NCBI RefSeq assembly: GCF_017498505.1 | Contig: NZ_CP071798.1 | Location: forward strand, 248,001-312,000 | Source: Sporosarcina sp. Te-1 | GTDB taxonomy: Bacteria > Bacillota > Bacilli > Bacillales_A > Planococcaceae | Reading direction: 5' to 3' | DNA: 64,000 nt | Shown here: one piece after another, positions 11,173 through 43,922 of the stretch | Position numbering within the stretch: position 1 is the first letter of the stretch | Layout: each line of letters starts with the position of its first letter | Made by a program: the position numbers and the translations under genes | The notes under the pieces: model-generated | Seen by the model: the letters and a program-made list of their open reading frames with translations, nothing else | Told to the model about the DNA's origin: nothing | Database searches by the model: none

Positions 11173-12228
11173 ATGGGCAAGAAGAAAAAAACCTTACCGA
11201 AAAATTTCGATGAACTAATTGAAGCAGGCAACATTTCAACATTAAAAGAGGTATTTACCAAATGCGAATTGGATGCCCGTGGCGGATACAGTAAATCAAC
11301 AGCTTTGAGCTTTTTCAATATACCGAATGAATTGGTGCGTTGGCTCTTGGAACAGGGTGCTGATATTAATGCCAGAGATACTTACGGAAGAACGGCTCTA
11401 CATAAACATGTGATAAGTTGGTGCGGTCTTACTGAATTGCTGCTTGAGCTGGGTGCAAATATAGAAGCCGCCGATTATCAAAATGAGACACCTTTATTTG
11501 CCGCCGCAAGTTCCTTTAAGCCAAATGCGGTTCGCGCATTGGTTGCGAGAGGTGCAAATTTCAGCGCGGAAAATAAGATGAAACAGACACCCTTAGAAAA
11601 ATCGTTAGCTATGTGTCGAAATATAGATATTGTCCATATGGCGGAAGTTGCCGATATTCTGCTTGATGCGGGAGCAACTGTTACGCAGGAAATGAAAGAC
11701 TCGATTAAGCGAATCGGAACCGACTTTGAATTTCACAGAGAAGTCTTTAATAAAGAATATTTAAATCAAACGGATGAGGCACTTTACCGTCTATATGAGC
11801 TATTTGATGTTCCCCCAGTAGGGAAACGAAAGACTCGTGATGGCACCTCTCCAATAGTAGTATCAACGAAGGGATGGCAGGCGCAACATCATGAACTCTG
11901 GAGTTTATTAATTCCTTCACAAGGACATGCGAACACAGTACAGGGTGAGGTGATTCGTATTACTGGTAAAGTGTCATACGAAGTCTTAGATAATGAGGGA
12001 ATCAACTGGGATCATCAATTTCGTCAGATGCTCAATAGTTTGAACTATTATTTTAGCTTGGGGACGCCATTACATCCCGCTGCACTTCAGGAGGCAGCAA
12101 CAGTAGTGAAGGAACTTCAAAACGGCCATGGAAGTGATGAACCTGCGAGACTGTGCGAACTTGCAGTGCAATGGGTGCTAACCAATCCGAATCCTATTAC
12201 TTTGAACCAGCCTGACTATAAGCGATAA
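11173..12228 (+). CDS. Ankyrin-repeat protein with an extra C-terminal domain
   Basis: 351 residues. Four to five ankyrin repeats span about residues 35-175 (LVRWLLEQGADINARDTYGRTALH, LTELLLELGANIEAADYQNETPL and similar). They are followed by a segment with no repeats: about 250-350 carries WDHQFRQMLNSLNYYFSLG and a helical end, and I do not recognise it. The start follows AAGGGGAG at 11157-11164. Bacterial ankyrin proteins bind other proteins, and several are immunity proteins in polymorphic toxin loci. A second ankyrin gene lies at 16.9 kb in the same island. Confidence 0.75.
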   Translation: MGKKKKTLPKNFDELIEAGNISTLKEVFTKCELDARGGYSKSTALSFFNIPNELVRWLLEQGADINARDTYGRTALHKHVISWCGLTELLLELGANIEAADYQNETPLFAAASSFKPNAVRALVARGANFSAENKMKQTPLEKSLAMCRNIDIVHMAEVADILLDAGATVTQEMKDSIKRIGTDFEFHREVFNKEYLNQTDEALYRLYELFDVPPVGKRKTRDGTSPIVVSTKGWQAQHHELWSLLIPSQGHANTVQGEVIRITGKVSYEVLDNEGINWDHQFRQMLNSLNYYFSLGTPLHPAALQEAATVVKELQNGHGSDEPARLCELAVQWVLTNPNPITLNQPDYKR

Positions 12229-28871: not shown

Positions 28872-29021
28872 GTAAGAAAAAATTTATATATTCGAAAAAA
28901 TACAGAACTCTGTTATCGGTAGGCGTTGTTAAAATTACCCTGTTGTATTTCAGTTGGGTTTCTTCTTTTCGGCATGTTAAACTTTGAAAGTTCAATTGGC
29001 AATGAAGAAGGTGGAATTCAT

Positions 29022-31163
29022 TTGAGAAGAATGGAACATAAGCAGCAACAGAAACGATTACAAGCGGGAAAGAAAAGGTCTAACCTAAAAAAGCCGATCC
29101 GTATCATATTCTACGGAATGCTCATTTTGGTCGTTTGTGGATTGGTGATCTTTAATCTGTTAATTTCAACGAGTGATGTAAGTAAACTGGAGGAACCGGA
29201 ACCAAGGCCGACATTCATTTATGATCAAAACGGAGAGATCGTTAGTAAAATATCGAATTCCAACATAGAAGGAGTTTCTCTAGACCAAATTCCAAAAGAG
29301 CTAATGGAAGCCGTAATTTCTGTTGAAGATCAACGATTTTACAAACATAGCGGGATTAATTATTTCGGGATTGCACGCGCATTGACCCAAAACCTGTTCA
29401 AAGGTAAAGTCGTGGCTGGTGGCAGTACGATTACGCAACAGTTATCCAAAAACGCATTTTTATCAAATGAACGAACGTACTCTCGTAAATTCAAAGAATT
29501 GATTCTTACGAAAAAGATTGAGAGAACGTATTCAAAAGATGAGATTATGGAACGCTATTTGAACCAAATTTATTTTGGAGATGGAGCATGGGGTGTCCAA
29601 CGTGCTGCGCAAGTCTATTTTGGTAAAGATGTAAGCCAATTAACGCTAAGCGAATGTGCTACATTAGCCGGATTAATAAAAGCGCCTTCCCAATTATCCC
29701 CGAACAAAAATATGGAGAAATCGGTGGAACGACGCAACCTTGTTTTATCGCTAATGAAAGGTGAAAAGTACATTAGTCAAGCGGAATACGATGAAGCGAT
29801 TGAGCAAGAAATTGTATTAGCCGATTCAACTATGCCGGATTATAAAGGGAAATATCCTTATTATATAGACCATATTATGGAAGAGGCGATTAACAAGTAT
29901 CATCTTACGAAAAATGAAGTATTATCTGGCGGACTACATATTACTACGACGTTAAATCCTGTTATCCAAGACGCCCTTGAAGAAGTTTATAAGGATGATC
30001 GATATTTTCCTGAAAGCAAGCCCGATCAACTCATTCAAAGCGCCTCCGTCTTCATAGATCCTAAAACGGGTGGAATTAGTGCGTTGATTGGAGGCAGAGG
30101 GGAATATACGTATGGCCGCTTTAATCATGCGACCCAGCTCATTAGACAGCCGGGATCGTCCTTGAAGCCGCTTGCAGTCTATACCGCTGCATTGGAGCAA
30201 GGCTATCAAATTTCGGATTTGCTTGTTGATGAACCAATCAACATAAATGGATATTCTCCGAGAAATTTCGATAAGAAATATAGAGGGCGGGTGACAATGT
30301 ACGATGCAGTCGCTCATTCGTATAATATTCCTCCCGTCTGGCTCTTACATCAAATCGGAATCGAAAAAGGTGTGAGCGCTGTAGAAAAGTTCGGAATTCC
30401 ATTGGAAAAGGAGGATCATAATCTAGGCCTCGCATTAGGGGGCTTGCATAAAGGGACGTCTCCCTTGCGGATGGCTCAAGCTTTTTCTACTTTTGCGAAT
30501 AATGGGGCCATGATGGAAGCCCATGCGATTGTAGAAATCAAGGATTCAGAAGGCAAAGTCCTTGGAAAGTGGCGTGAGCAGTCGGTAGACGTAACAGAAG
30601 CGGAAGTAGCCCAGCAAATGACCTATATGCTACAAGGCGCTGCCGAAGTGGGGACGGCCAAGAAAGCACAAATTTCAGGGATGGAAGTAGCGGGGAAGAC
30701 GGGCACAACCCAGCTGCCATTTACAGGCGTAGACGGTTCAAAGGATCATTGGTTCGTTGGTTATTCACCGGATATCGTGGGTGCGGTTTGGCTAGGCTAT
30801 GATCAAACGGATTCCGAGCATTACTTAACATCAACTAGCAGTTTCACAGTGCCGGCTATATTCGGACAAGTCCTGTCAAGGTCGACTAGTGAATTGCCTA
30901 CGAAGAAATTTGATTTGCCATTAATCGCGAAACATAAAAAAGATCTCGAGAAGCAGAAAGGGAAGATGAAGGAGAAAGAGCTAAAACAAAAACAGCAACA
31001 AGAAAAAGTGAAAAAGAAACAGGGGAAGAAAGAGGAGAAAGAACGGAAAAAAAGAGAAAAGGAGAGGGAAAAGAGGCTGAAGAAAGAAGAGAAAGAAAAG
31101 AAGAAGCGAGAGAGAGGGAAAGGAAAAGAGAAAGGACATAAGCCGAGGAAAAATAATGATTGA
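29022..31163 (+). CDS. Class A penicillin-binding protein (PBP1A family)
   Basis: 713 residues: transglycosylase plus transpeptidase for peptidoglycan synthesis outside the membrane. A membrane anchor lies at about 26-48. The GT51 domain has SVEDQRFYKHSGIN (catalytic Glu about 102) and GGSTITQQLSKN. The transpeptidase has PGSSLKP (Ser about 379), AHSYNIPP as SxN and AGKTGTTQ as KTG. TTG 29022 follows GAAGGTGG with 8-base spacing; the frame is open 32 codons upstream. The last 80 or so residues are an extreme Lys/Glu/Arg tail, unusual for the family. Terminator downstream. Confidence 0.93.
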   Translation: MRRMEHKQQQKRLQAGKKRSNLKKPIRIIFYGMLILVVCGLVIFNLLISTSDVSKLEEPEPRPTFIYDQNGEIVSKISNSNIEGVSLDQIPKELMEAVISVEDQRFYKHSGINYFGIARALTQNLFKGKVVAGGSTITQQLSKNAFLSNERTYSRKFKELILTKKIERTYSKDEIMERYLNQIYFGDGAWGVQRAAQVYFGKDVSQLTLSECATLAGLIKAPSQLSPNKNMEKSVERRNLVLSLMKGEKYISQAEYDEAIEQEIVLADSTMPDYKGKYPYYIDHIMEEAINKYHLTKNEVLSGGLHITTTLNPVIQDALEEVYKDDRYFPESKPDQLIQSASVFIDPKTGGISALIGGRGEYTYGRFNHATQLIRQPGSSLKPLAVYTAALEQGYQISDLLVDEPININGYSPRNFDKKYRGRVTMYDAVAHSYNIPPVWLLHQIGIEKGVSAVEKFGIPLEKEDHNLGLALGGLHKGTSPLRMAQAFSTFANNGAMMEAHAIVEIKDSEGKVLGKWREQSVDVTEAEVAQQMTYMLQGAAEVGTAKKAQISGMEVAGKTGTTQLPFTGVDGSKDHWFVGYSPDIVGAVWLGYDQTDSEHYLTSTSSFTVPAIFGQVLSRSTSELPTKKFDLPLIAKHKKDLEKQKGKMKEKELKQKQQQEKVKKKQGKKEEKERKKREKEREKRLKKEEKEKKKRERGKGKEKGHKPRKNND

Positions 31164-31215
31164 ACGGTACCATTTGGGTCTCTCCTGGGTTGTAACAAGG
31201 TTCAGATTGTTTTCT

Positions 31216-31260
31216 AAAAAGCGCTTCAGGTCCTATTAAGGATTTGAAGCGCTTTTCCTT
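31216..31260 (+). terminator. Terminator of the penicillin-binding protein gene
   Basis: Stem AAAAGCGCTTCA / TGAAGCGCTTTT (31217-31228 with 31245-31256), followed by CCTTTTG. Confidence 0.85.
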
Positions 31261-31698
31261 TTGGGAGCGTACGGATGAAAAGTGGAAACTACTCAGAGGA
31301 TGAATAAGCTAAAATAATTCTAAAAGAAGATTTATGCCATTTCGAATTGGTGGAACTCTTGATTGGAATTGGGTTACATTTGAAGATGAGAATAATCATA
31401 AATTTTAATTTATAGGGAGATGAAAGAGTGGAGGGTATTTTATTTCATATAAGAAATGAATAGGGTAAACAATTGTATGAGTAGTCGGAAAACTACCGAT
31501 GGGAATCATTAACGTCCGGTCAATGATTCCCAAGTCAATTCGTTTAAATGAAACTGGCCCGCTGGAAATGGAAAACGCCAGTCAACGTATGATACACAAA
31601 AAGGACTCATTTCTGAAAAATTTATATAAGTAGGAAAAAATTAGTAATAAAAGCGATTTCCAACCCCTCCTCTTATATGAAAAATGTATAGAAGCGAA
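31261..31698. other. Intergenic stretch with one hairpin
   Basis: No gene supported. TGGGAATCATT (31500-31510) pairs perfectly with AATGATTCCCA (31522-31532) but no T run follows; it could be a processing site or a fossil. The stretch lies at the left edge of the phage-derived module, so an attachment site might be here, but I see no obvious direct repeat. Confidence 0.35.
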
Positions 31699-32325
31699 TC
31701 AAAGTTTGTATTTCACTTCTACGGCTTTACCTATTATTCGTGCTGGATTGTCCTCGGTAATTATAAATGGCTCATGAGCAGGATTATCCGGCATAAGCAT
31801 AATCATTTTTCCTTGTTTCCGAACACGTTTTAGTGTGGCCTCTGTATTGCCATTTACTAGTACCGCTGCAATTTCGCCATACTCCACTTCAGGTTGTTCG
31901 CGAATAAGAACATGTGAACCATCTGGAATAGTTGGCTCCATGCTGTTTCCTTTAGCCTCTAAATAATATAGCGTTCCACTTGGCAAGTCGTCCGGCGATT
32001 CGTACCGATAACCTTTAATGTTATCTTCGGCAAGTATAGGGTCTCCGCAAGCAATGATACCTAGAATTGGAATGCGAATAGTGTTAGGAGATATATGAAC
32101 GAGGTTAGAAGGAATTGTTAAATCTTTGTCCATTAGATCGTGCAAAGAAACATTAAATATTTTTGAGATGTCTGCCAGTAAACCTGATTTTGGCTCATAA
32201 GTACCTTTTTCCCATTCGCTCACAGATGATCCGCTTTTTCTACCGAGTAATTGTGCGAGTTCCGCTTGTTCTAAACCCTTTCGTTCTCTTAGATATTTTA
32301 AATTTTTCCCGAAAATGTTTCTCAT
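31699..32325 (-). CDS. Phage-type repressor, XRE HTH plus S24 peptidase
   Basis: 208 residues. The HTH is at residues 7-60 (LKYLRERKGLEQAELAQLLG, SGSSVSEWEKGTYEPKSG). The LexA/CI-like protease domain has the probable self-cleavage site IIACGDPI near 90, catalytic Ser in GNSMEPTIPDG and catalytic Lys in EATLKRVRKQG. Both catalytic residues are intact, so DNA-damage-induced self-cleavage is plausible. ATG 32325 follows GAGGTG. It is transcribed away from the tail genes, the usual arrangement for a lysogeny repressor. Confidence 0.9.
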   Translation of the reverse strand: MRNIFGKNLKYLRERKGLEQAELAQLLGRKSGSSVSEWEKGTYEPKSGLLADISKIFNVSLHDLMDKDLTIPSNLVHISPNTIRIPILGIIACGDPILAEDNIKGYRYESPDDLPSGTLYYLEAKGNSMEPTIPDGSHVLIREQPEVEYGEIAAVLVNGNTEATLKRVRKQGKMIMLMPDNPAHEPFIITEDNPARIIGKAVEVKYKL

Positions 32326-32720
32326 TTTATTTTCACCTCTCACCTTATTAGTATACCTTATTTTCAGTTTTAATGAAATATATATCCATTTTTAGTTCTG
32401 AATTTCTGATATATAGATTTGACTTCAGAAAAACCGATGTGTTAATATTGTCCCAACAAGACAGATCGGAGTGATTTTATACTGTTTTTCTTAATGGAGA
32501 ATTAATTCGAATTCATTGAATCAGTTTAACCGAAGTGGTAGGCGTTTTTATATTGAGTTATCGGGATCATGGTTTCTTAATTAAGAATTTGCAGAAAACG
32601 AAAATTGAAAATTGAACGGGCAATAGGGAGAAATTTCTATTTTTCAAATATTTTTTTGTAAGAGTATTAATCCTGAGATCTAAGAACGAACCGAATCGGG
32701 CAAATAAATAATATGGGTAG
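32326..32720. promoter_or_regulatory. Divergent control region of the phage module
   Basis: 395 bases between the repressor and the first rightward gene, where opposing promoters and repressor operators would be expected. It is very AT-rich. Imperfect dyads of TTCTGA/TCAGAA type occur around 32398-32430, but I cannot define operators with confidence. Confidence 0.45.
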
Positions 32721-32726
32721 GTGTCT

Positions 32727-33140
32727 GTGTTGTATGAATGGTTGAATGACTATCGAGAGTTGGAAGATGAAGTTTTACTGCTAGACTTAAAACTTGAACG
32801 TAGTAAAAGGGAATTGAAACGGTGGACAAGTGGCGATCTAATGAAGGTTAAATTAACAGCAGAATCAAATGGTGCCAAATTAGAAGACATTATAGCTTCT
32901 ATCGAATACGAGCTAGCGCATAAAATGAATGATTTGTATGATGTCAAAAAGCTGATTGGGACATTTAAAGGCTTGGATAATCAAATTCTCTATGGAAAAT
33001 ATGTTGAAGGAAAGGCGCTAATTGATGTTGCATTCGAATTAGGTAAAAGTCCGAACTATATTTATAATAAACATGCACAGATTATGCGCACAATTGAATA
33101 TGTAAGAACTACAGAAATTCCCTCAAAGCTATTGTATTAG
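32727..33140 (+). CDS. Phage regulatory protein, sigma-like/ArpU-type
   Basis: About 137 residues. The N-terminal two thirds are helical and charged (LEDEVLLLDLKLERSKRELK). The C-terminal part YVEGKALIDVAFELGKSPNY then IYNKHAQIMRTIEYV looks like a sigma-region-4-type helix-turn-helix, as in phage late regulators (ArpU/RinA style). GTG 32721, GTG 32727 and TTG 32730 are in frame; GGTAGG at 32716-32721 suits the latter two. Position next to the repressor suggests the activator of the tail operon (inference). Confidence 0.55.
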   Translation: MLYEWLNDYRELEDEVLLLDLKLERSKRELKRWTSGDLMKVKLTAESNGAKLEDIIASIEYELAHKMNDLYDVKKLIGTFKGLDNQILYGKYVEGKALIDVAFELGKSPNYIYNKHAQIMRTIEYVRTTEIPSKLLY

Positions 33141-33160
33141 TAGTTTGGATAAGTTAAATG

Positions 33161-33207
33161 GCACCTCCATTGTTAGAGTTTATCATACAATGGAGGTGCA
33201 TTTTTTA
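33161..33207 (+). terminator. Terminator of the regulatory gene
   Basis: Thirteen-base perfect stem GCACCTCCATTGT / ACAATGGAGGTGC (33161-33173 with 33187-33199) followed by ATTTTTT. Confidence 0.92.
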
Positions 33208-33413
33208 TGGTAAGAACTAGAATTTATATATGTCTTGCTTTGTTTGAAAATATGTATGCTATCGAAACTTAACATTTTATTATGTTGTATTTCCTCCATA
33301 GAAAGTGTTGTGAATCTTAAATATAGTAATAGCATGAGATACCGTGGTTGAGGGTCTCGTAATAGTCTCCTGACACCGCAATACTTAGTGGTGGTTTTTT
33401 TCCACTAATAAGG
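33208..33413. other. Gene-free start of the gap before the tail genes
   Basis: No gene. A dyad TTAGTGG / CCACTAA around a T tract lies at about 33384-33408. In a complete prophage, terminase, portal and capsid genes would lie between the regulator and the tail tube; here that whole part is reduced to about 620 bases. Confidence 0.5.
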
Positions 33414-33439
33414 GAGCAGTAATTCTTGCTCGTTTTTTT
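33414..33439 (+). terminator. Short terminator-like hairpin
   Basis: GAGCA / TGCTC stem (33414-33418 with 33427-33431) followed by GTTTTTTT. Confidence 0.5.
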
Positions 33440-33618
33440 ATGTAGGCTTTTTAACAAATTTGTTTAGTCGTACAACCATACGAATGTTTTAAATGTGTTG
33501 TTGGGAGTTGTCAGTAGGAGGACTGATATATGGTAAATGTGTAATAAGAAATTATAGCACTAGTTATGACATTAGGGATGCATTTTTACTGAGCGCTGCC
33601 AAAGTTTGTTAGAGAATA

Positions 33619-33660
33619 AAATAAGGAATAAAGGGAATATTCCTTATTTAATGTTTTTTT
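33619..33660 (+). terminator. Terminator-like hairpin ahead of the tail operon
   Basis: AAATAAGGAATA / TATTCCTTATTT stem (33619-33630 with 33638-33649), followed by AATG and a long T tract. It insulates the tail operon from upstream transcription, so the tail promoter should lie in 33661-33750. Confidence 0.65.
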
Positions 33661-33767
33661 TTGTTTGTGATTAACGTTCTATCAATAACATCCCTACTGA
33701 AATTACTGAAGGCTATATTGAGCTTTTAACTAGAAAAAAACACAAAAAATGAAAAGAGGTTATTTAA

Positions 33768-34343
33768 ATGACAGGAAACAAAGTAAATTTTGGATTAAAA
33801 AATGTCCATATTGCACCTTTTGAAATGGTCGGTGAAACAATCACTTATGAGACACCGTATAGAATTCCAGGAGCTGTATCACTTACATTAGAGCCGAGAG
33901 GAGAAATGACTGAGTTTTACGCTGATAATGTGCTTTACTATTCATCTTCTTCGAATGATGGGTATGATGGGACTCTCTCGATTGCAACAATACCTGAGCA
34001 ATTCGCAATTGATGCATTAGGTGAAGAGAAAGACGTGGATGATGGAGTATTGACGGAAAGAGCAGATGCGAAGCATAAATCGTTTGCTCTTTTGTTCGAG
34101 TTTGAGGGAGATGTTAAAGCAACTCGACATGTTCTTTACAACTGTTCCGCAAATCGTCCTACGGTATCGGGTGAAACAACTACAAATACGCATGAGCCAC
34201 AGGCTAATGAATTAACTTTCGTTGCATCAGCTCGTCAAACAGATTATGCAGTTAAAACGAAAACAACTGCAGAGACATCACCCGCCATTTATGATGCTTG
34301 GTATACGAAAGTTTACGACAAAAAAGCACCTGTGGGGGTTTGA
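33768..34343 (+). CDS. Phage major tail (tube) protein
   Basis: 191 residues, phi13-family major tail protein, forming the tube of a non-contractile tail. Recognisable text: FGLKNVHIAPFEMVG, PGAVSLTLEPRGEMTEFYAD, GYDGTLSIATIPEQFAIDAL, and the C-terminal AIYDAWYTKVY. ATG 33768 follows AAAAGAGG. First gene of the tail operon, directly followed by the chaperone gene. Confidence 0.88.
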   Translation: MTGNKVNFGLKNVHIAPFEMVGETITYETPYRIPGAVSLTLEPRGEMTEFYADNVLYYSSSSNDGYDGTLSIATIPEQFAIDALGEEKDVDDGVLTERADAKHKSFALLFEFEGDVKATRHVLYNCSANRPTVSGETTTNTHEPQANELTFVASARQTDYAVKTKTTAETSPAIYDAWYTKVYDKKAPVGV

Positions 34344-34346
34344 TCA

Positions 34347-34694
34347 GTGGAGAAAACACTTTGGGTCGACGGTAAAGAAGTAACTTTTAAATCAACCGCT
34401 GCCACTCCGTTACGTTATAAAGCTCAATTTGGCCAGGATTACTTCTCAGCTGTCTTGGGAATGGCTGCACTTGGAAATGTAAAAAATGCGAGTGATGTTG
34501 ATTACGATGCTCTAAAGCAGTTCGATTTTGATGTTTTTTATAACATATTGTGGACACTCGCAAAAACAGCAGACAAAAGCATTCCAGATCCTATCACTTG
34601 GCTAGATGGCTTTAACGAATTTCCTTTGTTTGACATCATTCCGGAAGTGCAAGATTTAATTATGACAAGTCTTAAAAGCTCTAAAAAAAAATAA
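34347..34694 (+). CDS. Tail assembly chaperone (gpG-type)
   Basis: 115 residues, basic C-terminus ending KSSKKK. It lies between tube and tape-measure genes, where lambda gpG-like chaperones are encoded, and has their features: TPLRYKAQFGQDYFSAVLGM and DVFYNILWTLAKTADKSIPD. GTG 34347 follows GTGGGGG. A nine-A tract at its end allows a -1 frameshift to a longer product (next entry). These chaperones coat the tape measure and recruit tube protein. Confidence 0.85.
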   Translation: MEKTLWVDGKEVTFKSTAATPLRYKAQFGQDYFSAVLGMAALGNVKNASDVDYDALKQFDFDVFYNILWTLAKTADKSIPDPITWLDGFNEFPLFDIIPEVQDLIMTSLKSSKKK

Positions 34695-34897
34695 GTAATG
34701 AGAAGAGTTCGGGTGATCCTATTACCACGGACTCTTTTTTGTACATGTGTAAACAAAGTGGATTAGAAACAGCAGATTTGGATGTAATGACTATCGGTAA
34801 TTGTATGGATTATATTGAAACCTTCATTGAAATGAACAACCCAAATGGGAAAGAAACGACAAGGTCTGCAAAACAAAGTGATTTTGATAATTTCTAA
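34683..34897 (+). CDS. Frameshift extension of the tail chaperone (gpGT-type)
   Basis: The tract of nine A at 34683-34691 lies at the end of the gpG frame just before its TAA (34692-34694). Slipping back one base opens a frame to TAA at 34895-34897 with 68 codons, including SNEKSSGDPITTDSFLYMC, KQSGLETADLDVMTIGNCMD and YIETFIEMNN. This resembles the T domain of Gram-positive phage chaperones, which binds the tape measure. The extension has no good start of its own, so a programmed -1 shift is the natural reading; product about 183 residues. Confidence 0.8.
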
Positions 34898-34909
34898 GGA
34901 GGTGAGAAG

Positions 34910-37900
34910 ATGTCAAAAAGTATAATGGAAATAACAATTAATCAAAATGGAGAAATGAAAGAGTTAGAGAAAGCTTTGATGGACGTTAACTTGAAAGCAC
35001 GTGAACTACAGAACGAATTGCGTGCTGTTGAGCGAGCACTAAAATTCAGTCCGGGTAATACGGAAATTGCTGCGCAAAAACAACAAGTATTAGCAGAGCA
35101 AGTTGAAATTACAACTGAGAAATTAAGACGCCTCAACGAGGTACAAACTGATATTGACAAGCAATTTGCAGAAGGGAAAATAAATGACGAACAATATCGT
35201 GCATTCCAACGCGAGGTTATTGAAACAGAATCAAAGCTTAAGCAATTTGAGGAACAGCTGGTCTCTTCCCAATCCAAATTAATTGCCTTTAGTGAAACCA
35301 CTGCTGGAGCTGGGGAGAAATTTATGAACGCTGGTGCAAATGTGACTTCAGCGGGTGAATTGCTCACTTCAAAAGTAACTGCTCCTCTCTTGGAAATAGG
35401 AGCTACGGCTGCAAAAGTTGGTAGTAATTTCGAATCAAGTATGTCTAAAATGCAATCCGTTACGGGTGCATCTGGTGAAGAACTAGTTCAACTTACAGAA
35501 AAAGTGCATGAAATGGGTGCGACTACCCAATTCAGTGCAACTGAAGCAGCAGAGGCACTTTCATATATGGCCATGAATGGTTGGAATACAAGTGATATGT
35601 TATTAGGCATTGAAAGTGTTCTGACGCTAGCCTCTGCAACTGGTGAAAATTTTGCACATACGGCCGACATCATATCAGACAATCTAACTGCATTTGGTTT
35701 GAAGACGGCTGACAGTGCTCAATTTGCAGACGTTTTGGCAGCGGCATCATTGAATGCAAACTCAAACATTTTAACATTTGGCGAATCCCTTAAATACGTT
35801 GCACCCTTGGCTGGATCCATGGGTTACTCAGCAGAAGATATTTCCATCGCATTAGGCTTAATGACCAAGTCGGGCATAGACGCGACGCAAGCTGGTTCAA
35901 CTCTTAATACAATGATTTCCAATATGTCCAGACCAACAGATGCCATGGCGAATTCTATGAAAGAACTCGGTATTTCTCTCACTGATTCATCGGGTAAAGT
36001 AAAACCGTTTGAAACCGTTTTGGATGAACTACGAGCATCTTTTGGCAGCCTGACAGAGACACAACAGGATCAATACGCAGCAACTCTCTTTGGCGAAGAA
36101 GCCATGGCCGGAGCGCTTGCAATCATCAATGCATCGGAAGAGGACTATTATAATTTGGCAAATGCTATTAATGATGCTGAAGGCTCTGCACAGAAAATGG
36201 CAAGTACAATGACAGATAATCTTCAAGGCCGAGTCTCAGATGTGCAAGGTGCGCTTGAATTAGCAGCTATATCAATTTACGAAAATTTGCAGCCGGCATT
36301 AGGAAAAATAGTTGATTTTATCAAGTCATTGGTTGATTGGTTTAACAATCTATCACCCGCCGCTCAAAATACAATTGTAATAATGGCGGGAATAGCTACA
36401 GCAATTGGTCCTATTTTAGTGAATATTGGAACCCTAATATCAGCTATTGGAGCAGTTTTTGCTGCATTTACTACCGTCAGTGGAGCGATAGCAGTTGTGA
36501 CGACCGGCGCTGCAGCGGCAACCCCAGCCATCGGGGCATTGGCTGCAGTATTCAGTGCTTTGACTGGGCCAATCGGTATTGCCGTTGCAGCGATAGCAGC
36601 ATTAACGATTGGTGGCATTGCACTCTATGATCATTTAAAAGAGGACGCCATTCCACAAATAGACCGATTTGGTGAAGGAGTGTCCGAAGCAACACAACAA
36701 GCACTCGGTGGTTTTTTTGATTTGTCAGATGGAGCCTCGCAATCACTTGCAGATATGAGCATGCGTGGAGCCGAGGTTACAGATGAAATGGCTAGTGAAA
36801 TGATAGCCAAGTATGATGAAATGAACAGCCAAATAGTTCAGGGTCTGGAAGATAATCATCAACAACGTATGGATTCTATGAAGAATTTTTTTCTAAACTC
36901 AAGTGTTCTAACAGATGATGAGGAAGCGGCCATTCTACAGAAACAGCAAAACGCTCATGACTTGCAAATACTTTCTCAGGAATCAAAAAATAAGCGTATA
37001 CAAGAAATCATGCAACAGGCTGCTAAAGAAAATCGAGAACTAACTCAGGCCGAAGCTGATGAAATCAATAATATTAATAAGTCAATGAATGAGAATGCAG
37101 TACAAGCTTTGTCAGCTAGTGAAGTCGAACAGAAAATAATAATGGAACGATTAAAGGAAACTGCTGGAGATTTGTCGGCACGGCAAGCGGCGGAAGTAGT
37201 TCAGAACTCTGCCAAACAACGTGACGGTGCTGTGAAAGAAGCAAATGCACAATTCGACGAAACTCTTGCTCATATCATTCGTATGCGTGACGAAACGGGT
37301 GATATCAGTGCGGAAACTGCTGATAAGCTAATTGCAGAAGCCAAGAAACAGAGAGACGAATCAGTGAAGCATGCAATAAATATGCATGCAGAAGTTGTGG
37401 ATCAGGCGCAAAAGCAAGCAGGTGACCACATTAACAAGGTGGACTGGGAAACAGGAGAAATCTTATCCAAGTGGGACGTTTTCAAAAATAAAACGAAGGA
37501 GATATTTACTACTATCGGTTCAAGTATTAAAGAGATATGGGATACCGTCTGGAATTGGACAAAAGAAAAAGTTGAAAGTATTGTAACAGCGGCTATTTCC
37601 GGATTCGTATCCCTTGTGGTTGGAATCAAGGATAAGATGACGGAAGTAGTTGAAACAGTAACGAGCTTTTGGGGCAATGCTCAAGAGTTTTTAACAAATA
37701 TTAATTTGTTGCAGATCGGGAAGGATATAATCCAAGGTTTGATTAATGGTATAAGTCAGATGGCCGATAAAGTTTCAGAGAAAGTTAAAGGATTAGCTGA
37801 TAGTATTCCAGATTGGATTAAGAGAGTTCTCGGTATCCACTCGCCTTCTAGGGTTATGATGAAACTTGGTGAGGAGATTGGAAAAGGTCTTGCGGTAGGT

Positions 37901-38590
37901 ATTGAAACTACTGATAAACAAGTTTTAAGGGCTACGGACAGCATTGCTGCTACTGTAGAAGATGGTTTCACAATGGCTATGCAGAAGATAGCCAATCAGG
38001 CTGAACAAGTTGCTGACAGGACAAAATATGCAGCTGAGAAAATCCAAAATTCATATAGCAACTTAACTTCTGGCCCTAACGTATTGATCCGGGCTGTTAC
38101 AGAACTAGAGAATAATGCTTCAAAGTTGAGTATACAGAATGTTGGTAAAGAAAATATGTACGGTATGTATGATGGTCTTGACACGGTACGAGGTTTGTTA
38201 ATATCTCAAGCTCAATCTATTGCTGAAGAAGTAAGTTTTACAATCAGTAAAGCACTTCAAATTAAATCTCCGTTCCATGTCAACAAGAAGATTGGGGAGC
38301 AGCTTGGCGCAGGAACTAAAGCTGGCATAGAAAGTATGCTTAATGACATCAAACGAGTCTCAGGGCGGATGGGTAATCTAGTAGTCCCGACCTTGCCAAA
38401 CTTTTATTCTAGTACATTTGGGAACTCAATTCGTTCCGCAACAATATCAAATAATGTTCACCCTGCTCCAGTAATCAATCAGCAAGTTGTTATTAATAGT
38501 CCTGAACCGACAAGCCCATCAGACAATGCAAGATATTTACGGCGCACGGCGCAAGAACTAGGACTAGCTTTTTCATTAGGAGTGAGGTGA
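34910..38590 (+). CDS. Phage tail tape measure protein
   Basis: 1226 residues, the largest gene in the window, as expected for a tail-length ruler. An N-terminal coiled coil (residues 10-130) is followed by the TP901-type core (SNFESSMSKMQSVTGASGEE, QFSATEAAEALSYMAMNGW, GIDATQAGSTLNTMISNMSR). Hydrophobic segments lie at about 485-570, and the C-terminal part has the HSPSRVMMKLGEEIGKGLA motif twice in variant form (KSPFHVNKKIGEQLGAGTK). By the lambda rule of about 1.5 angstrom per residue it would give a tail near 180 nm (estimate). AAGGAGGTGAG precedes ATG 34910. Frame intact throughout. Confidence 0.95.
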   Translation: MSKSIMEITINQNGEMKELEKALMDVNLKARELQNELRAVERALKFSPGNTEIAAQKQQVLAEQVEITTEKLRRLNEVQTDIDKQFAEGKINDEQYRAFQREVIETESKLKQFEEQLVSSQSKLIAFSETTAGAGEKFMNAGANVTSAGELLTSKVTAPLLEIGATAAKVGSNFESSMSKMQSVTGASGEELVQLTEKVHEMGATTQFSATEAAEALSYMAMNGWNTSDMLLGIESVLTLASATGENFAHTADIISDNLTAFGLKTADSAQFADVLAAASLNANSNILTFGESLKYVAPLAGSMGYSAEDISIALGLMTKSGIDATQAGSTLNTMISNMSRPTDAMANSMKELGISLTDSSGKVKPFETVLDELRASFGSLTETQQDQYAATLFGEEAMAGALAIINASEEDYYNLANAINDAEGSAQKMASTMTDNLQGRVSDVQGALELAAISIYENLQPALGKIVDFIKSLVDWFNNLSPAAQNTIVIMAGIATAIGPILVNIGTLISAIGAVFAAFTTVSGAIAVVTTGAAAATPAIGALAAVFSALTGPIGIAVAAIAALTIGGIALYDHLKEDAIPQIDRFGEGVSEATQQALGGFFDLSDGASQSLADMSMRGAEVTDEMASEMIAKYDEMNSQIVQGLEDNHQQRMDSMKNFFLNSSVLTDDEEAAILQKQQNAHDLQILSQESKNKRIQEIMQQAAKENRELTQAEADEINNINKSMNENAVQALSASEVEQKIIMERLKETAGDLSARQAAEVVQNSAKQRDGAVKEANAQFDETLAHIIRMRDETGDISAETADKLIAEAKKQRDESVKHAINMHAEVVDQAQKQAGDHINKVDWETGEILSKWDVFKNKTKEIFTTIGSSIKEIWDTVWNWTKEKVESIVTAAISGFVSLVVGIKDKMTEVVETVTSFWGNAQEFLTNINLLQIGKDIIQGLINGISQMADKVSEKVKGLADSIPDWIKRVLGIHSPSRVMMKLGEEIGKGLAVGIETTDKQVLRATDSIAATVEDGFTMAMQKIANQAEQVADRTKYAAEKIQNSYSNLTSGPNVLIRAVTELENNASKLSIQNVGKENMYGMYDGLDTVRGLLISQAQSIAEEVSFTISKALQIKSPFHVNKKIGEQLGAGTKAGIESMLNDIKRVSGRMGNLVVPTLPNFYSSTFGNSIRSATISNNVHPAPVINQQVVINSPEPTSPSDNARYLRRTAQELGLAFSLGVR

Positions 38591-38594
38591 GACG

Positions 38595-39446
38595 ATGCGA
38601 GAAAAATTAACAATTACTAATACAAACGGTGATACGGTGGAACTTAGCCATCGTCCACCGTTTTTATTAACTAAAATCGAAGGACTTGGCGATGTGGATG
38701 CAGATGTGCAAATGTCCAGAGCCCCTTTCCAAGATGGAGCTACACATGTCGATACATTGCTTGAGCCACGGTATATTTCCATACAGGTGTCTATTCTTTC
38801 TGACAGCCGTGAAGATTTGTTTGCATTTCGAGAGCATTTGACAAATGTACTTAACCCAAAGTACTCGTTAACAGTAACCTATGAAAATGGATGGGTATCT
38901 CGGCAAATCAGTGCTATTAGTGAGCATGTTCCGAAATATCCAGCAGATAACCGAGGATTAAGGTATCAAATAGCGCTGGCTAATCTAGTCTGTCCAAGTC
39001 CATTTTGGCAGGATATTAATCCGACAAATATAAAACTCGAGGACTATGTATCTGGTTTTCGCTTTCCTTTCCATTTCCCGGTTCGATTTGCAACACGGGG
39101 GGATACAAGATTACTTGTTAATGTAGGCCACGCACCGGCACCAGTCAAGATTACTTTCCGTGGGGAATCAATCAATCCGACAATCACTAAAGTGGGTGCA
39201 GACGAATTTATAAGAGTGAAAAAAACAATACCGCAAGGCTATGCATTGGAGATAACTACAGATATTAATGAGAGGGCAGTTCGAATTATAGCGCCAGACG
39301 GAATAGTGACAAATGCAATGGGATACATTGATCAGAAGAGTACATTTTTTTCACTTGATATAGGTGAAAACAAGCTTTCATTTATCACGGAGGGTGGAAA
39401 GCCGGATGTTTATGTGGAATATCGAAATTTGTATCTAGGGGTCTAA
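38595..39446 (+). CDS. Distal tail protein (Dit, Sipho_tail family)
   Basis: 283 residues. N-terminal Dit domain with PPFLLTKIEGLGDVDADVQM, then QDGATHVDTLLEPRYISIQV, and the LTNVLNPKYSLTVTYENGW strand; C-terminal galectin-like region up to VYVEYRNLYLGV. Dit makes the hub ring at the tail tip that carries the host-binding parts. It begins 4 bases after the tape-measure stop, with AGGAGTGAGG inside that gene as ribosome site. Confidence 0.9.
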   Translation: MREKLTITNTNGDTVELSHRPPFLLTKIEGLGDVDADVQMSRAPFQDGATHVDTLLEPRYISIQVSILSDSREDLFAFREHLTNVLNPKYSLTVTYENGWVSRQISAISEHVPKYPADNRGLRYQIALANLVCPSPFWQDINPTNIKLEDYVSGFRFPFHFPVRFATRGDTRLLVNVGHAPAPVKITFRGESINPTITKVGADEFIRVKKTIPQGYALEITTDINERAVRIIAPDGIVTNAMGYIDQKSTFFSLDIGENKLSFITEGGKPDVYVEYRNLYLGV

Positions 39447-39467
39447 ATAGAAAGGACGTGGTAGGGG

Positions 39468-41270
39468 ATGACAGAAGAATTTGGTTTTTTTGATCCTGTA
39501 GAAGTTGCTCCAGAGGTTTTTGATCGGGAATACAACGCACAACAATTTACAAACTATTTTAAAGCATTGATAACGACGGGCATTTTGAAAGGTGCAGGAA
39601 AAGAACTAAAGGTAACTGCAAACGATAGTAATATGATAACCGAAATTGATACCGGCATAGCTTTTATTGAGGGAAGGTACTATTCAAATACGTCTCAACT
39701 TGCACATACTCATGAAACAGAAACATTAGGAAAAGACCGTATAGACCGAGTTGTTGTACAACTCAATTTGGATGATAGGTTGGTAAAAACATATATTAAA
39801 AAGGGGATAGCTTCAGCAACACCGATTGCTCCAGCATTGACTAGAAACAAAACAATATATGAGATCTCGTTAGCCCAAGTAAAAGTGATTGGCGGGCAAA
39901 CATATATAAAAACAGATAATGTGAGAGATGAGCGGGGCGATAAGGCTTTATGTCCGTATGCAGGGTCAGAAATTCTCCCAAACTTCAATGACGCGATTTT
40001 GGCTAACTTAGTAGAACAAGTAGAAAGTCTCTTTAGGTTAGTGCAGGATGATGACAAAGGGTCAGCTTTTGAATTGGAAACTGGTACAAACTTGAATACT
40101 CTCACTAAATCAGGGTTCTATAGAGTGGGCTATTCCACCTCTCCAATTTCAGGTCTCCCGGCAGGGACTTATATGATAATGGTAGTTAGAAATAAGACTG
40201 TTTCACCTGAAGGAAATTCACCGGTGATTCAAATGTTCATTGGAGAGAATGTTGAACTTGGTAAAATATTTGTCAGGATAAGAAACTCAATAGGTGTATG
40301 GTCGGTCGTTAAAACTGTGGGTGGAGACGTTTCGGATGCCAGTTTAACCCATAAAGGAATTGTGCAATTAACAAACTCATTTACGTCAACTTCACAAGCA
40401 CTTGCTTTGACGCAATACGCAGGTTATACGCTGAATAATGCAATTAATACACTATCAAACAAATTGTTAAGTAGCCAGTTAGCTCTTGGTCAAGGTGCTT
40501 CCGCAAGTGGATCTGCTTCCACAGCTGTGGGAACGTCATCCAAGGCTACGGGGACATACGCCGCAGCGTATGGACTGGGGGCAAACGCTGGTACGTATAG
40601 TACCGCACTTGGAGCCTTAACGGATGCATCTCAAACAGGATCGGTCGCATTAGGTTATCAAGCACATGCCTCTATGTATAGCGATGGCAAACTAGGAGTT
40701 GGTATTAATGCAACTGGTCCATGGAATTGGTTAATACCGGGACAATTGCATGTAGCTGGTTCCAAAAATTTTCAAATCCCCCATCCGAAACCATTGAAGA
40801 AAGAGACACACATAATTAGACATGGTGCCGTAGAGTCACCTACAGCTGGTGATACCCTCTATAGATATTCAGTTGATATCGTGGATGATATAGCTATTAT
40901 AAAAATGAATGGGATGAATGATACCTTTACTGCACCAATTGAGAGAGCGGATGACACATATGTAATTAGAATTGCTTTACCGGACTATTGGATATATTTG
41001 AATATTCATGATCAGGTTTTCGTAAGTCCATCTAGGCATTTTGGAATGGGTTTTGGCGAAATAGATTGGGAAGCCGAACAGTTAATACTCACTCTGCAAA
41101 GCCGTAAGTCATATCATGTTTTGTTGCTAGGTACTCGAAATGATGATGATGTGCAAATTTGGCATGTTAAAGGTATAGAACGGGAGTTGGGCGAAACATG
41201 GCTCGGAGAAACATATGTAATTGATGATTTAGAACTAGATGAAACGACGGAATTAGAGGAGGAAATATAA
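39468..41270 (+). CDS. Tail fibre / receptor-binding protein with knob and YadA-head-like repeats
   Basis: 600 residues. The N-terminal 180 resemble phage baseplate attachment domains (FFDPVEVAPEVFDREYNAQQ, DTGIAFIEGRYYSNTSQLAH). A pyocin-knob-like part follows at about 205-290 (LNTLTKSGFYRVGYSTSPIS, LPAGTYMIMVV), ending SLTHKGIVQLTN as in many tail fibres. Residues 340-400 contain 14-residue YadA-head-type repeats (ASGSASTAVGTSSKATGTYA, AGTYSTALGALTDASQTGSV, then ALGYQAHAS). The last 180 residues form a beta-rich tip of unknown target. It probably determines host specificity. Confidence 0.78.
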   Translation: MTEEFGFFDPVEVAPEVFDREYNAQQFTNYFKALITTGILKGAGKELKVTANDSNMITEIDTGIAFIEGRYYSNTSQLAHTHETETLGKDRIDRVVVQLNLDDRLVKTYIKKGIASATPIAPALTRNKTIYEISLAQVKVIGGQTYIKTDNVRDERGDKALCPYAGSEILPNFNDAILANLVEQVESLFRLVQDDDKGSAFELETGTNLNTLTKSGFYRVGYSTSPISGLPAGTYMIMVVRNKTVSPEGNSPVIQMFIGENVELGKIFVRIRNSIGVWSVVKTVGGDVSDASLTHKGIVQLTNSFTSTSQALALTQYAGYTLNNAINTLSNKLLSSQLALGQGASASGSASTAVGTSSKATGTYAAAYGLGANAGTYSTALGALTDASQTGSVALGYQAHASMYSDGKLGVGINATGPWNWLIPGQLHVAGSKNFQIPHPKPLKKETHIIRHGAVESPTAGDTLYRYSVDIVDDIAIIKMNGMNDTFTAPIERADDTYVIRIALPDYWIYLNIHDQVFVSPSRHFGMGFGEIDWEAEQLILTLQSRKSYHVLLLGTRNDDDVQIWHVKGIERELGETWLGETYVIDDLELDETTELEEEI

Positions 41271-41527
41271 TGCAAGTATTTGTGAAAACAGTTTATATTC
41301 AATTCAAGAATCCTATTACGGGACAACCTACAAAGAAAGTTGCGGAACACTACTTTGGTAGACGTGTCGTCGCCCTAATTAATGGTGAGGAACGTATGTT
41401 CAAATTTACTAAGGACGAACTTCCGTTTGAGGATACAATAACCGAACTAGAGGATCTAATCGTACAACTTGTGGCCAAAGAAGCAGAAAAGTTAGAGAAT
41501 GAACAGAATTCAGCCTTTCAGGGATAA
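41270..41527 (+). CDS. Small tail-module protein, unclassified
   Basis: 85 residues, start overlapping the fibre stop by one base and stop overlapping the next start region. Beta strands at the N-terminus (VFVKTVYIQFKNPITGQPTK) and an acidic helix at the end (DTITELEDLIVQLVAKEAEK). Tight coupling suggests a fibre-associated structural or assembly role; no family recognised. Confidence 0.6.
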   Translation: MQVFVKTVYIQFKNPITGQPTKKVAEHYFGRRVVALINGEERMFKFTKDELPFEDTITELEDLIVQLVAKEAEKLENEQNSAFQG

Positions 41528-42693
41528 TGTTTATGAATAAACCCATAAGAATATTAACACCAGATATTGAGATACTTGGAGAAATATCTAACTATGAATC
41601 ACTCATTTTTACAAGATCTTGGTATGGTATCGGCACATTGGAATTACGAATTAATAGACATAAAAACTATACAGAAACTCTTCAAAAAGGGAATATTATT
41701 ATTATAGGTCAAGAAACGCATAAAGTATTCCAGATTCTTCATAGAGAAATTGAATTGGATCAGCAGGGTAAAGTCACGGAAAATTGGCATATAACCGCAC
41801 ATGAATTAAAAACTATTGTAGGGAGACGTCTTACTATCCCTCCTGCAAATGCATCTTATGATAATAAATCTGGTGCGGTAGAATCTGTTATTAAACATTA
41901 TGTTGAGAGAAACTTGATCAATCCCTTAGATCCCAGACGTAAGATACCACAACTTCTTGTTGCACCTGATTTGCAACGTGGTCCTTACATTGAAAGACAA
42001 TCTCGCTTTAAGAATCTTGCTGAAGAAATTGCAGAGCTTAGCTTATTATCGGATGTTGGTTGGGGTATTCATGTGGATTATGATTTGCAAAAGTGGGTTT
42101 TCGATATAGATATTGGAAAAGATATCTCTGTCAATCAAGATGTCAATCCACCGGTTATTTTCTCTCCACAGTTTGGGAATATAAAGGACATGCATTTTGT
42201 AGATAGTGACTTAAACTATCGTAATGTAGCATTAGTGGCAGGAGAGGGCGAAGGCTTTGGAAGACGTGTATTAGAAGTCGGTCTATCAACAGGTTTAGAA
42301 CGATATGAAGTATTTGTTGATGCCCGAGATGTTCCTGAAGAGACAGATGAAGAAGACTCTATGCGTAGACCTAGACCAGATATTGATGTGATTAGAGATT
42401 TAGAAAATCGGGGTTATCAATCCCTTGCTGAAATGGGACAAGAAATGTATTTGGAGGGCCAGATTATGACGGCTGGTTCATTTACTTATGAGCTGGATTG
42501 GGATTTAGGTGATATTACTACCATTCAGAACCAAGATTGGGGAGTGACTCTCGACAGTCGAATAACGGAGGTCACGGAAGTTTATGAGCGAGAAGGGATG
42601 AAGTTGTCTATCACATTAGGACAAAGTAGGCCGACCCTGATGAGCAAGATTAAACAGGAGCTTGCGGGAATACAAAATGAGATTGTTAAATAA
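41527..42693 (+). CDS. Siphovirus ReqiPepy6 Gp37-like tail protein
   Basis: 388 residues, Gp37-like family found in siphophages of Gram-positives, in place of the classical tail-lysin hub. Text seen: YESLIFTRSWYGIGTLELRI near the N-terminus, ENWHITAHELKTIVGRRLTI, then YIERQSRFKNLAEEIAELSL and DWDLGDITTIQNQDWGVTLD at the end. No peptidase motif is visible. ATG 41527 or 41533 may start it. Followed directly by a terminator, so it ends the tail operon. Confidence 0.85.
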   Translation: MFMNKPIRILTPDIEILGEISNYESLIFTRSWYGIGTLELRINRHKNYTETLQKGNIIIIGQETHKVFQILHREIELDQQGKVTENWHITAHELKTIVGRRLTIPPANASYDNKSGAVESVIKHYVERNLINPLDPRRKIPQLLVAPDLQRGPYIERQSRFKNLAEEIAELSLLSDVGWGIHVDYDLQKWVFDIDIGKDISVNQDVNPPVIFSPQFGNIKDMHFVDSDLNYRNVALVAGEGEGFGRRVLEVGLSTGLERYEVFVDARDVPEETDEEDSMRRPRPDIDVIRDLENRGYQSLAEMGQEMYLEGQIMTAGSFTYELDWDLGDITTIQNQDWGVTLDSRITEVTEVYEREGMKLSITLGQSRPTLMSKIKQELAGIQNEIVK

Positions 42694-42718
42694 AGAACGC
42701 CCAACCGGGCGTTCTTTT
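42693..42718 (+). terminator. Terminator of the tail operon
   Basis: AAGAACGCCC / GGGCGTTCTT stem with loop AACC and a short T run, starting at the last gene's stop codon. Confidence 0.9.
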
Positions 42719-42854
42719 AATATTAAGTAAAGACAAGCCCTGAGAAACTGTATGTGTCCAGTTAATAGATAGTTTATTGCTGTGAAGTCTGTGAAGAGGG
42801 AAGTAATAGCCTGTCCTTTCGATAATCTTTAATCAAAATGAAGGGAGAATATTA

Positions 42855-43262
42855 GTGGAATATATTAAAATGATTCCAGTATTCTTTGTGGGGTTATTAA
42901 CATATTTATTTGGAGAATGGAGTTCTTTACTCACGATATTAGTTGCATTGGTAGTGATCGATTTTGTAACCGGGATGTTAGCCGGGGCATTAAATGGTGA
43001 GTTGAAAAGTAGTATAGGAATGATTGGTATTACCCGGAAAGTTTTTATTTTTGCAATGGTCGCTGTGGCTCATTTAATTGATCTTCTACTAATTGAGAAT
43101 GGAATTGAATCTGTAGAAGTTGTAATGTCAATGGTTGTTGTGTTTTATGCAATAAACGAAATTTTATCCATTACTGAAAATGCCGGAAGAATTGGACTAC
43201 CCGTGCCTAAACAAGTACGGAACGTGATTGAGATATTACAAAACAAAAAGGATGGTAGATAA
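42855..43262 (+). CDS. Phage holin (Phage_holin_4 / Cph1-TcdE type)
   Basis: 135 residues with three to four membrane segments (about 5-35 in two helices, 55-75, 88-105). Family text: LVALVVIDFVTGMLAGALNG, SSIGMIGITRKVFIFAMVAV and YAINEILSITENAGRIGLPV. Such holins open the membrane for endolysin at the end of a lytic cycle. GTG 42855 follows AAGGGAG. The gene is intact, but the endolysin normally found behind it is cut to a few codons. Confidence 0.9.
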   Translation: MEYIKMIPVFFVGLLTYLFGEWSSLLTILVALVVIDFVTGMLAGALNGELKSSIGMIGITRKVFIFAMVAVAHLIDLLLIENGIESVEVVMSMVVVFYAINEILSITENAGRIGLPVPKQVRNVIEILQNKKDGR

Positions 43263-43264
43263 CT

Positions 43265-43294
43265 ATGACAATGTCTTACTATCTCGTTCTTTAA
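43265..43294 (+). pseudogene. Start of a truncated endolysin-position gene
   Basis: Two bases after the holin stop, AAGGATGG precedes ATG 43265 and codons MTMSYYLVL then TAA. In related modules the amidase/endolysin starts exactly here. The remaining frame is missing, consistent with a deletion just after the start. Identification rests on position only. Confidence 0.35.
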
Positions 43295-43817
43295 AAAGTT
43301 AATAGGGAACTGAGTACCAATAATAAGAATTTGGCCACTGTCTTCTCATAGTTCTATGTTGAAGTGTGACCTCTTTAAATAGTTATTTTCTCTTGTGAGT
43401 TTCTTCATTAGTAATACGGAGAATTAATGATAAAACATTCGAAATTATTAGATAAATTATAGGTAGCCTTGCCAATTCAAACAATTTATACACATTTAGG
43501 TGTAGCTCGTTTATTCTGGTTATAGAAAAGGGCTTGGGCGCCTTTTAAGAAGAATTAGATGTACACCGAGTATGAATTCCTTCAAAGCGAACGTAATATC
43601 GCAGCATTATTTCTGGGGATAGGTGAAAAAACAATGAAATGCGTCATGTGGAATATAGTTAGTCTGGATAAGTAAAAATGAAAAAACAAGAGCGAACAAG
43701 ATTAACAGCACATGTGTCTGGCAATCGATTAGTATGAGACTTTACAAGAAATCTACAAGAAAATAAATCGTTAGAGCCTAAATTACTTAATTACAACAAT
43801 ATCGGAATCCGAACGAA
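43295..43817. other. Stop-rich remnant DNA after the phage module
   Basis: No intact gene. Short frames such as the 18-codon frame at about 43678 (KKQERTRLTAHVSGNRLV) hint at former coding sequence, family not recognisable. Marks the right edge of the phage-derived module. Confidence 0.4.
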
Positions 43818-43863
43818 TTTAAGTAGCCAGTCGTCGGTAAATACCGTCAACTGGCTACTTAAA
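43818..43863. terminator. Nested palindrome between the phage module and liv operon
   Basis: TTTAAGTAGCCAGT pairs perfectly with ACTGGCTACTTAAA (14 bases, 43818-43831 with 43850-43863), and inside it CGGTA pairs with TACCG. It lies about 60 bases beyond the livF stop and could end liv transcripts, though no clear T run follows on either strand. Confidence 0.5.
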
Positions 43864-43922
43864 TGGATGTTTTCATATTGACTCAAAAAAGGACAGTAAG
43901 TGCCGAATTGCTATAGATGCCT

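Follow-up and report, generated by a model that had tools for sequence, protein, structure and literature searches.

A headless, tail-only locus of prophage origin in Sporosarcina sp. Te-1 and a monocin-like cluster in a sister genus

When a prophage locus keeps its tail genes and has no head genes, is it a weapon that releases free tails, or a prophage caught soon after a large deletion? A locus in Sporosarcina sp. Te-1 (Planococcaceae) raises this question. Ten open genes, running from a repressor to a holin, lie there, flanked on one side by a PBP1A gene (28926-31163) and on the other by a Liv-type ABC transporter operon (from 43923); both flanking names come from the translations. The window, the whole 64,000-nucleotide stretch that we analysed and whose positions are used throughout, comprises bases 248001-312000 of the 4.30 Mb genome, a single contig. 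At a probability of about 0.5, we read the locus as an F-type (non-contractile) tailocin-like cassette, derived from an HK97-head siphoprophage related to one found complete in a congener. The strongest new result lies outside the window, namely a conserved monocin-like cluster in a sister genus that formed separately. Both are headless, tail-only loci of prophage origin.

A tail module without head genes

The first-pass annotation, made from the letters of the window, had described a repressor-to-holin gene set with all genes in frame. This was borne out, as every named gene is open, stands in the order given and matches a family (Table 1). The non-contractile tail gene set is unbroken apart from an absent tail-terminator gene; the chaperone open reading frame (ORF) ends in an A run, where the −1 frame remains open. 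The repressor aligns with solved LexA C-terminal domains, and its S24 architecture points to a stress-responsive switch. The annotation was equally right that terminase, portal, capsid, head-tail and integrase genes are missing. Indeed, capsid, portal, terminase, integrase and replication genes are all absent among the genes of the locus, as are tail-terminator and HK97-gp10 neck genes, and no integrase lies between PBP1A and the Liv operon. The repressor-to-regulator interval is 377 bases, and the early module (excision, replication) is absent. A truncation of the endolysin after a few codons was also correctly seen: behind the holin there is an ATG at 43265, 9 codons and then a stop (43292-43294).

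A related complete prophage, with the same gene order, is present in the congener G022 (C8, L072), where the regulator (63% identity), tube (76%), chaperone (57%) and Gp37-like protein (50%) have their counterparts. Its regulator-tube interval of ~8.6 kb (L072 441-9046) contains HNH, small and large terminase, portal, prohead protease, capsid, connector and HK97-gp10 genes, with a small gene directly before the tube that we read by position as the tail terminator. At this place the window has a gene-free gap, estimated earlier at about 620 bases and measured here at 627, with no plus-strand ORF of at least 60 amino acids (aa). Compared with a complete temperate siphophage, then, the window locus is without the head, packaging and integration genes. 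No head-gene remnant was detectable in the gap in searches against complete prophages or the phage collection. They were run with blastn and as short translated searches, and the 23 target loci comprised complete prophages, flank stretches and one phage; among the matches listed for gaps and flanks all were at chance level except for a late-promoter stretch. The gap (GC 0.313) and the gene-free left (0.355) and right (0.339) flanks are poorer in GC than the tail genes (0.402).

The part of the gap that does resemble other phages lies 3′ of the regulator gene. A 67-base stretch there matches the equivalent place in the G022 prophage, with similar stretches in L161 and L176, and contains consensus promoter-like hexamers at 33299-33327. 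Promoter-like hexamers and terminator-like sites over 31100-44000 are no more frequent than in shuffles, so the late-control assignment rests on position and on likeness to other loci. Across 27 regulator loci (those of the window, G022, and the sister-genus genomes G127 and G419, with 23 more from the family), 27 terminator-like hairpins were found downstream of the regulator against 1.7 expected from mononucleotide shuffles, and in 19 of the 27 loci such a hairpin starts at most 250 bases from the regulator stop codon. We infer that regulator, promoter and terminator form a phage late-control unit that was retained when the head block was lost. As an observation in its own right, the succession of a phrog_36 regulator gene, a promoter-like stretch and a close hairpin suggests control by terminator read-through. 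Candidate SOS boxes were discarded, since sequences within 2-3 mismatches of the box occur in scattered places, without one that lies convincingly at a promoter.

Table 1. Features of the tail-only locus, in window positions
Feature	Position	Strand	Evidence and remarks
S24/LexA-type repressor	31699..32343	-	214 aa; HTH and self-cleaving peptidase domain; Pfam Peptidase_S24 1.1e-27, HTH_3 2.5e-12
Late regulator phrog_36	32721..33140	+	139 aa; phrog_36 1.1e-23
Gene-free gap	33141..33767		627 bases; at the place of the HNH-to-tail-terminator block of the complete relative (G022 L072 441-9046)
Terminator-like strong hairpin and U run	33161..33199	+	3′ of regulator gene; -25.2 kcal/mol, z -6.6, 0/200 shuffles as good
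Late-promoter-like element	33269..33335	+	3′ of regulator; 67% identity over 67 bases to equivalent place in G022 prophage
Two terminator-like hairpins	33374-33393, 33414-33431	+	between late-promoter-like element and tail genes
Tail tube protein	33768..34343	+	phrog_88 9.6e-57
Tail assembly chaperone G	34347..34694	+	named by position; phrog_709 4.9e-40
Putative chaperone T extension	34695..34897	+	open frame via -1 frameshift at A run; function inferred
Tape measure protein	34910..38590	+	1226 aa, unbroken; phrog_1533 3.3e-265, PhageMin_Tail 2.3e-50
Distal tail protein Dit	38595..39446	+	SPP1_Dit 2.5e-12, Sipho_tail 2.2e-11
Tail fibre, receptor-binding candidate	39468..41270	+	Phage_fiber_2, YadA_head
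85-aa protein	41270..41527	+	no match in family searches
Gp37-like tail tip/hub protein	41527..42693	+	Sipho_Gp37 4.9e-89, phrog_538 5.4e-107
Holin	42855..43262	+	Phage_holin_4_1 5.7e-38
Ten-codon frame (stop included) at expected endolysin start	43265..43294	+	no recognisable lysin homology

A conserved headless cluster in a sister genus

How often tail tubes stand without head genes was surveyed by reading the bases upstream of tubes found by search. Among 29 loci from searches of the class (299 genomes) and the genus (68 genomes), 26 have head or neck genes upstream of the tube; of the exceptions, L094 (from the window) and L097 (from G127) carry the regulator at that place, and L106 has neither. 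A family search (261 genomes; 2 of 32 places gave no locus) found at least one head or neck match in 20 of 22 new loci, the others being L134 (G419), with the regulator, and L136, with neither. Two Clostridium loci have head genes. In IMG/VR, with relatives of the G127 query represented by the best 80 of 246, head or neck genes are upstream in 83 of 85 loci; L207 has the regulator, and L233, which matches the G381 scrap, has neither. Headless clusters behind the regulator are thus rare, being present in three genomes. L207 (IMGVR_UViG_2619619270_000001, 14.9 kb), whose identities to G127 equal those of G419 and which was counted as the G419 element, is a headless cluster catalogued as a viral contig.

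The loci of G381 (L136/L150, IMG/VR L233) and G052 (L106/L125) were rejected as headless clusters: lacking both neck genes and a regulator ahead of the tube, they are truncated tail scraps that follow toxin/immunity-type genes. In G381 (L150:1332-3307, also in L233), a toxin-like gene with an EndoU nuclease domain and an immunity-type gene lie directly upstream of the truncated tail module, at the head-gene place; in G052 (L125:9520-12535), a 335-aa toxin-like protein precedes an Imm6 gene directly upstream of the truncated tail module.

G127 and G419, two of five sister-genus species compared, share one orthologous headless cluster at the same chromosomal site, between a small membrane-protein gene beside the trp operon and an ABC substrate-binding gene. 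It comprises an ImmA-type protease, an HTH repressor, the regulator, tube, chaperone, tape measure, Dit, a long variable fibre, a Prophage_tail tip, holin and an M15-type endolysin, with 405-547 gene-free bases between regulator and tube. The window locus shares with it, in the same order, the regulator, the gene-free late-control gap, the tail genes from tube to tip and the holin, as well as the absence of a tail terminator; it differs in having no endolysin, a different repressor and a tip of the Sipho_Gp37 rather than the Prophage_tail family. Since these clusters also go without a tail-terminator gene, its absence in the window need not by itself mean decay.

Between G127 and G419, dN/dS is 0.02-0.11 in 9 of 10 element genes and 0.27 in the tip protein, by a simple count method without confidence limits and with the fibre excluded, only parts of which align (39-52%). 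dS is 0.91-1.59 in 7 of the 10 (tube 0.47, chaperone 0.72, lysin 2.47), beside 0.81-1.08 in four flanking host genes. Such values are the pattern of a cluster that was passed down at a single site under selection while its receptor-binding end varied. Two observations count against this: the G127 tape measure, whole in G419, is split into two ORFs, and the other three species (G416, G417, G418) have an empty site. In G417, with flanks that share 97-98% identity with the G127 flanks, the two sides meet across what are positions 11272 and 25935 on the G127 map.

Listeria monocins are described as consisting of a regulatory module (a CI-like repressor and a DUF955 protease), a capsid-free tail module, and a holin and endolysin, with no early module in the descriptions cited (PMC6872733; PMC7076858). 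The G127/G419 cluster, which has both the ImmA-type protease and the endolysin, closely fits this outline; by its gene content it is monocin-like and probably makes a bacteria-killing tail particle. The monocin-like composition proposed for the window holds in part. As in the described ftb cluster, a repressor switch divergent from early regulators, a siphophage tail module and a holin are present while capsid genes and the early module are absent, but the window has an S24 repressor where the monocin pairs a CI-like one with a DUF955 protease, it lacks an endolysin, and its cluster is known from a single genome.

Among other tailocins, which are mostly R-type, F-pyocin and monocin are called exceptions, to which rhizoviticin was added (PMC10811719). 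F-type pyocin and rhizoviticin are likewise non-contractile tail particle loci, but they are proteobacterial, and the rhizoviticin locus, in which head formation genes are absent, is described as keeping phage early-region genes, unlike the window (PMC10811719). A literature search on tailocins in Planococcaceae or Sporosarcina returned no paper.

In Pseudomonas, R- and F-pyocin clusters lie beside trp genes. The G127 (L123/L124) and G419 (L148/L149) clusters also adjoin the trp operon, which is probably a coincidence.

Separate origins and competing explanations

Is the window locus a member of the same lineage as the sister-genus cluster? On the tube tree, built from 34 sequences, the headless label has to change twice, and none of 200 bootstrap trees (0%) allows a single change; the window tube pairs with that of the complete G022 prophage (support 88/94), and the tubes of G127 and G419 sit among those of other genera of the family. 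This tree omits partial, weakly matching or contig-edge tubes (L101, L106-L114, L116, L119-L122, L137, L145-L147). Two changes are also needed in a tree of 26 regulators (0% with one), from which partial or stop-holding regulators were omitted. Both trees separate the window cluster from that of G127 and G419, so the same cut, and with it the headless state, arose at least twice.

What argues for a tailocin-like cassette in the window is that its tail, switch and holin genes are all open, head and early remnants are undetectable, the late-control element is kept, and the same layout, plus an endolysin, is orthologous and under low dN/dS in G127 and G419. Several points weigh against it. The lysis cassette is incomplete, with a holin and no endolysin, and because described monocins include such a cassette (PMC7076858), the missing endolysin counts. 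The tail-terminator gene, whose loss in lambda is reported to give very long polytails (PMC11784142), is absent. The window species is represented by one genome and its nearest relative has an empty site, which leaves conservation there unproven. The window tube groups with a complete prophage, apart from the conserved headless clusters, as would also be expected of a recent private deletion. Finally, synonymous sites between the window and G022 are saturated or nearly so, and post-deletion selection on the window genes is therefore not measurable.

The strongest competitor is a one-off deletion derivative, in which a complete siphoprophage sitting between PBP1A and the Liv operon was stripped, in one lineage, of its early block, head block and lysin, too recently for the tail genes to decay and with nothing selected. 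We give it somewhat less than an even chance. The site itself is consistent with it. In G017, the closest relative compared (PBP1A 88% identical, Liv DNA 92%), PBP1A adjoins the Liv operon; the alignment breaks off at window position 31166 and picks up again at 43914. G017 has 209 bases in this interval, and ~12.7 kb of the window strain is missing. Because this site is empty, the window locus alone cannot prove a tailocin. Attachment-site repeats were sought and rejected, as the longest direct match between the flanks is 10 bases, against 11-13 at the top of 100 shuffled pairs. The complete prophage of the same family in G022, the pairing of the tubes, the lost lysin and the ordinary phage character of most tube loci in the survey point the same way. 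Against it, several separate losses must have left no detectable remnant, yet none fell within ~10 kb of tail, switch and holin genes, and the same end state formed separately in the sister genus and was kept.

The earlier proposal to compare the locus in relatives, where recurring headless boundaries would favour a tailocin and a complete prophage at the site a deletion, thus speaks neither way for the window: G017 is empty and has no complete prophage there, the window tail genes are unbroken, and it is in the sister genus that headless boundaries recur.

A decaying former tailocin, under selection in the past as the sister-genus cluster is and inactive since the loss of its lysin, is a rather unlikely though serious contender. 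It would account for a layout equal to that of G127 and G419 minus the lysin, and for gap and gene-free flanks that are AT-rich relative to the tail genes; no tail gene of the window is broken, however, and without other strains it is hard to separate from the tailocin-like cassette. Indeed it is a sub-case of that reading, and the confidences overlap.

Very improbable is a satellite or gene-transfer-agent-like element supplying tails to the heads of another phage: tails of long-tailed phages are reported to assemble independently of heads (PMC11784142), but the cassette has no capsid, packaging or excision genes, and no complete prophage was recognised in the window genome by the phrog_2 terminase family, a weak test that also missed the HK97-type terminase of G022. 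For that reason we rejected the phrog_2 census of helper prophages as a negative test. It gave two matches in the window genome, of which the better is a second prophage remnant (L195:14175-19108; G000:C1, ~729-734 kb), with terminase genes beside IS3-type transposase genes, named from translations.

Together, it is about as likely that the locus is an F-type tailocin, or was one until recently, as that it is a prophage left by a one-off deletion. Of the first-pass proposal of a possible F-type tailocin, the anatomy stands, and it gains from a sister-genus cluster whose headless boundaries coincide in two species and whose dN/dS is low; the incomplete lysis cassette tells against it. The window locus is tailocin-like by its anatomy, and its membership is unproven because the lysis cassette is incomplete and the species sample is one genome.

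A possible route from prophage to tail weapon

If the window locus is a tailocin-like cassette, loss of the integration, replication and packaging/head modules would have brought the late-control unit, made up of the phrog_36 regulator with its promoter and the terminators close to that promoter, into place immediately before the tail tube gene. DNA damage would presumably lead to RecA-stimulated self-cleavage of the S24 repressor, as its family suggests, and the regulator, once made, may switch on the late promoter or read through it. Tube, chaperone, tape measure, Dit, fibre and tip could then form free flexible tails. A tape measure corresponds to ~1.5 Angstrom of tail per residue, which for 1226 aa predicts a length of ~180 nm. 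By analogy with known F-type tailocins, fibre and tip would bind a related bacterium and the tail would damage its envelope.

Two steps of this scheme, tail capping and release, are doubtful in the window, which has neither terminator nor lysin gene. The first doubt is eased by the conserved G127/G419 cluster, which does without a terminator gene as well. Release would be impaired, because the holin is intact but the lysin is gone; a lysin might come from elsewhere, or the system may now be cryptic. A bolder proposal, which we hold to be unlikely, is that F-type tailocins of this family arise repeatedly by one cut from the late-control unit to the tube, tail terminator included, that the intact late switch drives a terminator-less tail, and that the window locus is functional with a lysin supplied from elsewhere in the genome.

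The described F-type tailocins are few, according to one account (PMC10811719). If the readings given here are true, the conserved monocin-like cluster of the sister genus, together with the look-alike that formed separately in Sporosarcina, would let the conversion of a prophage into a tail weapon be asked about directly. Two further questions would open up: does the late switch serve as the fixed point of this conversion, and what caps tail length when there is no terminator protein?

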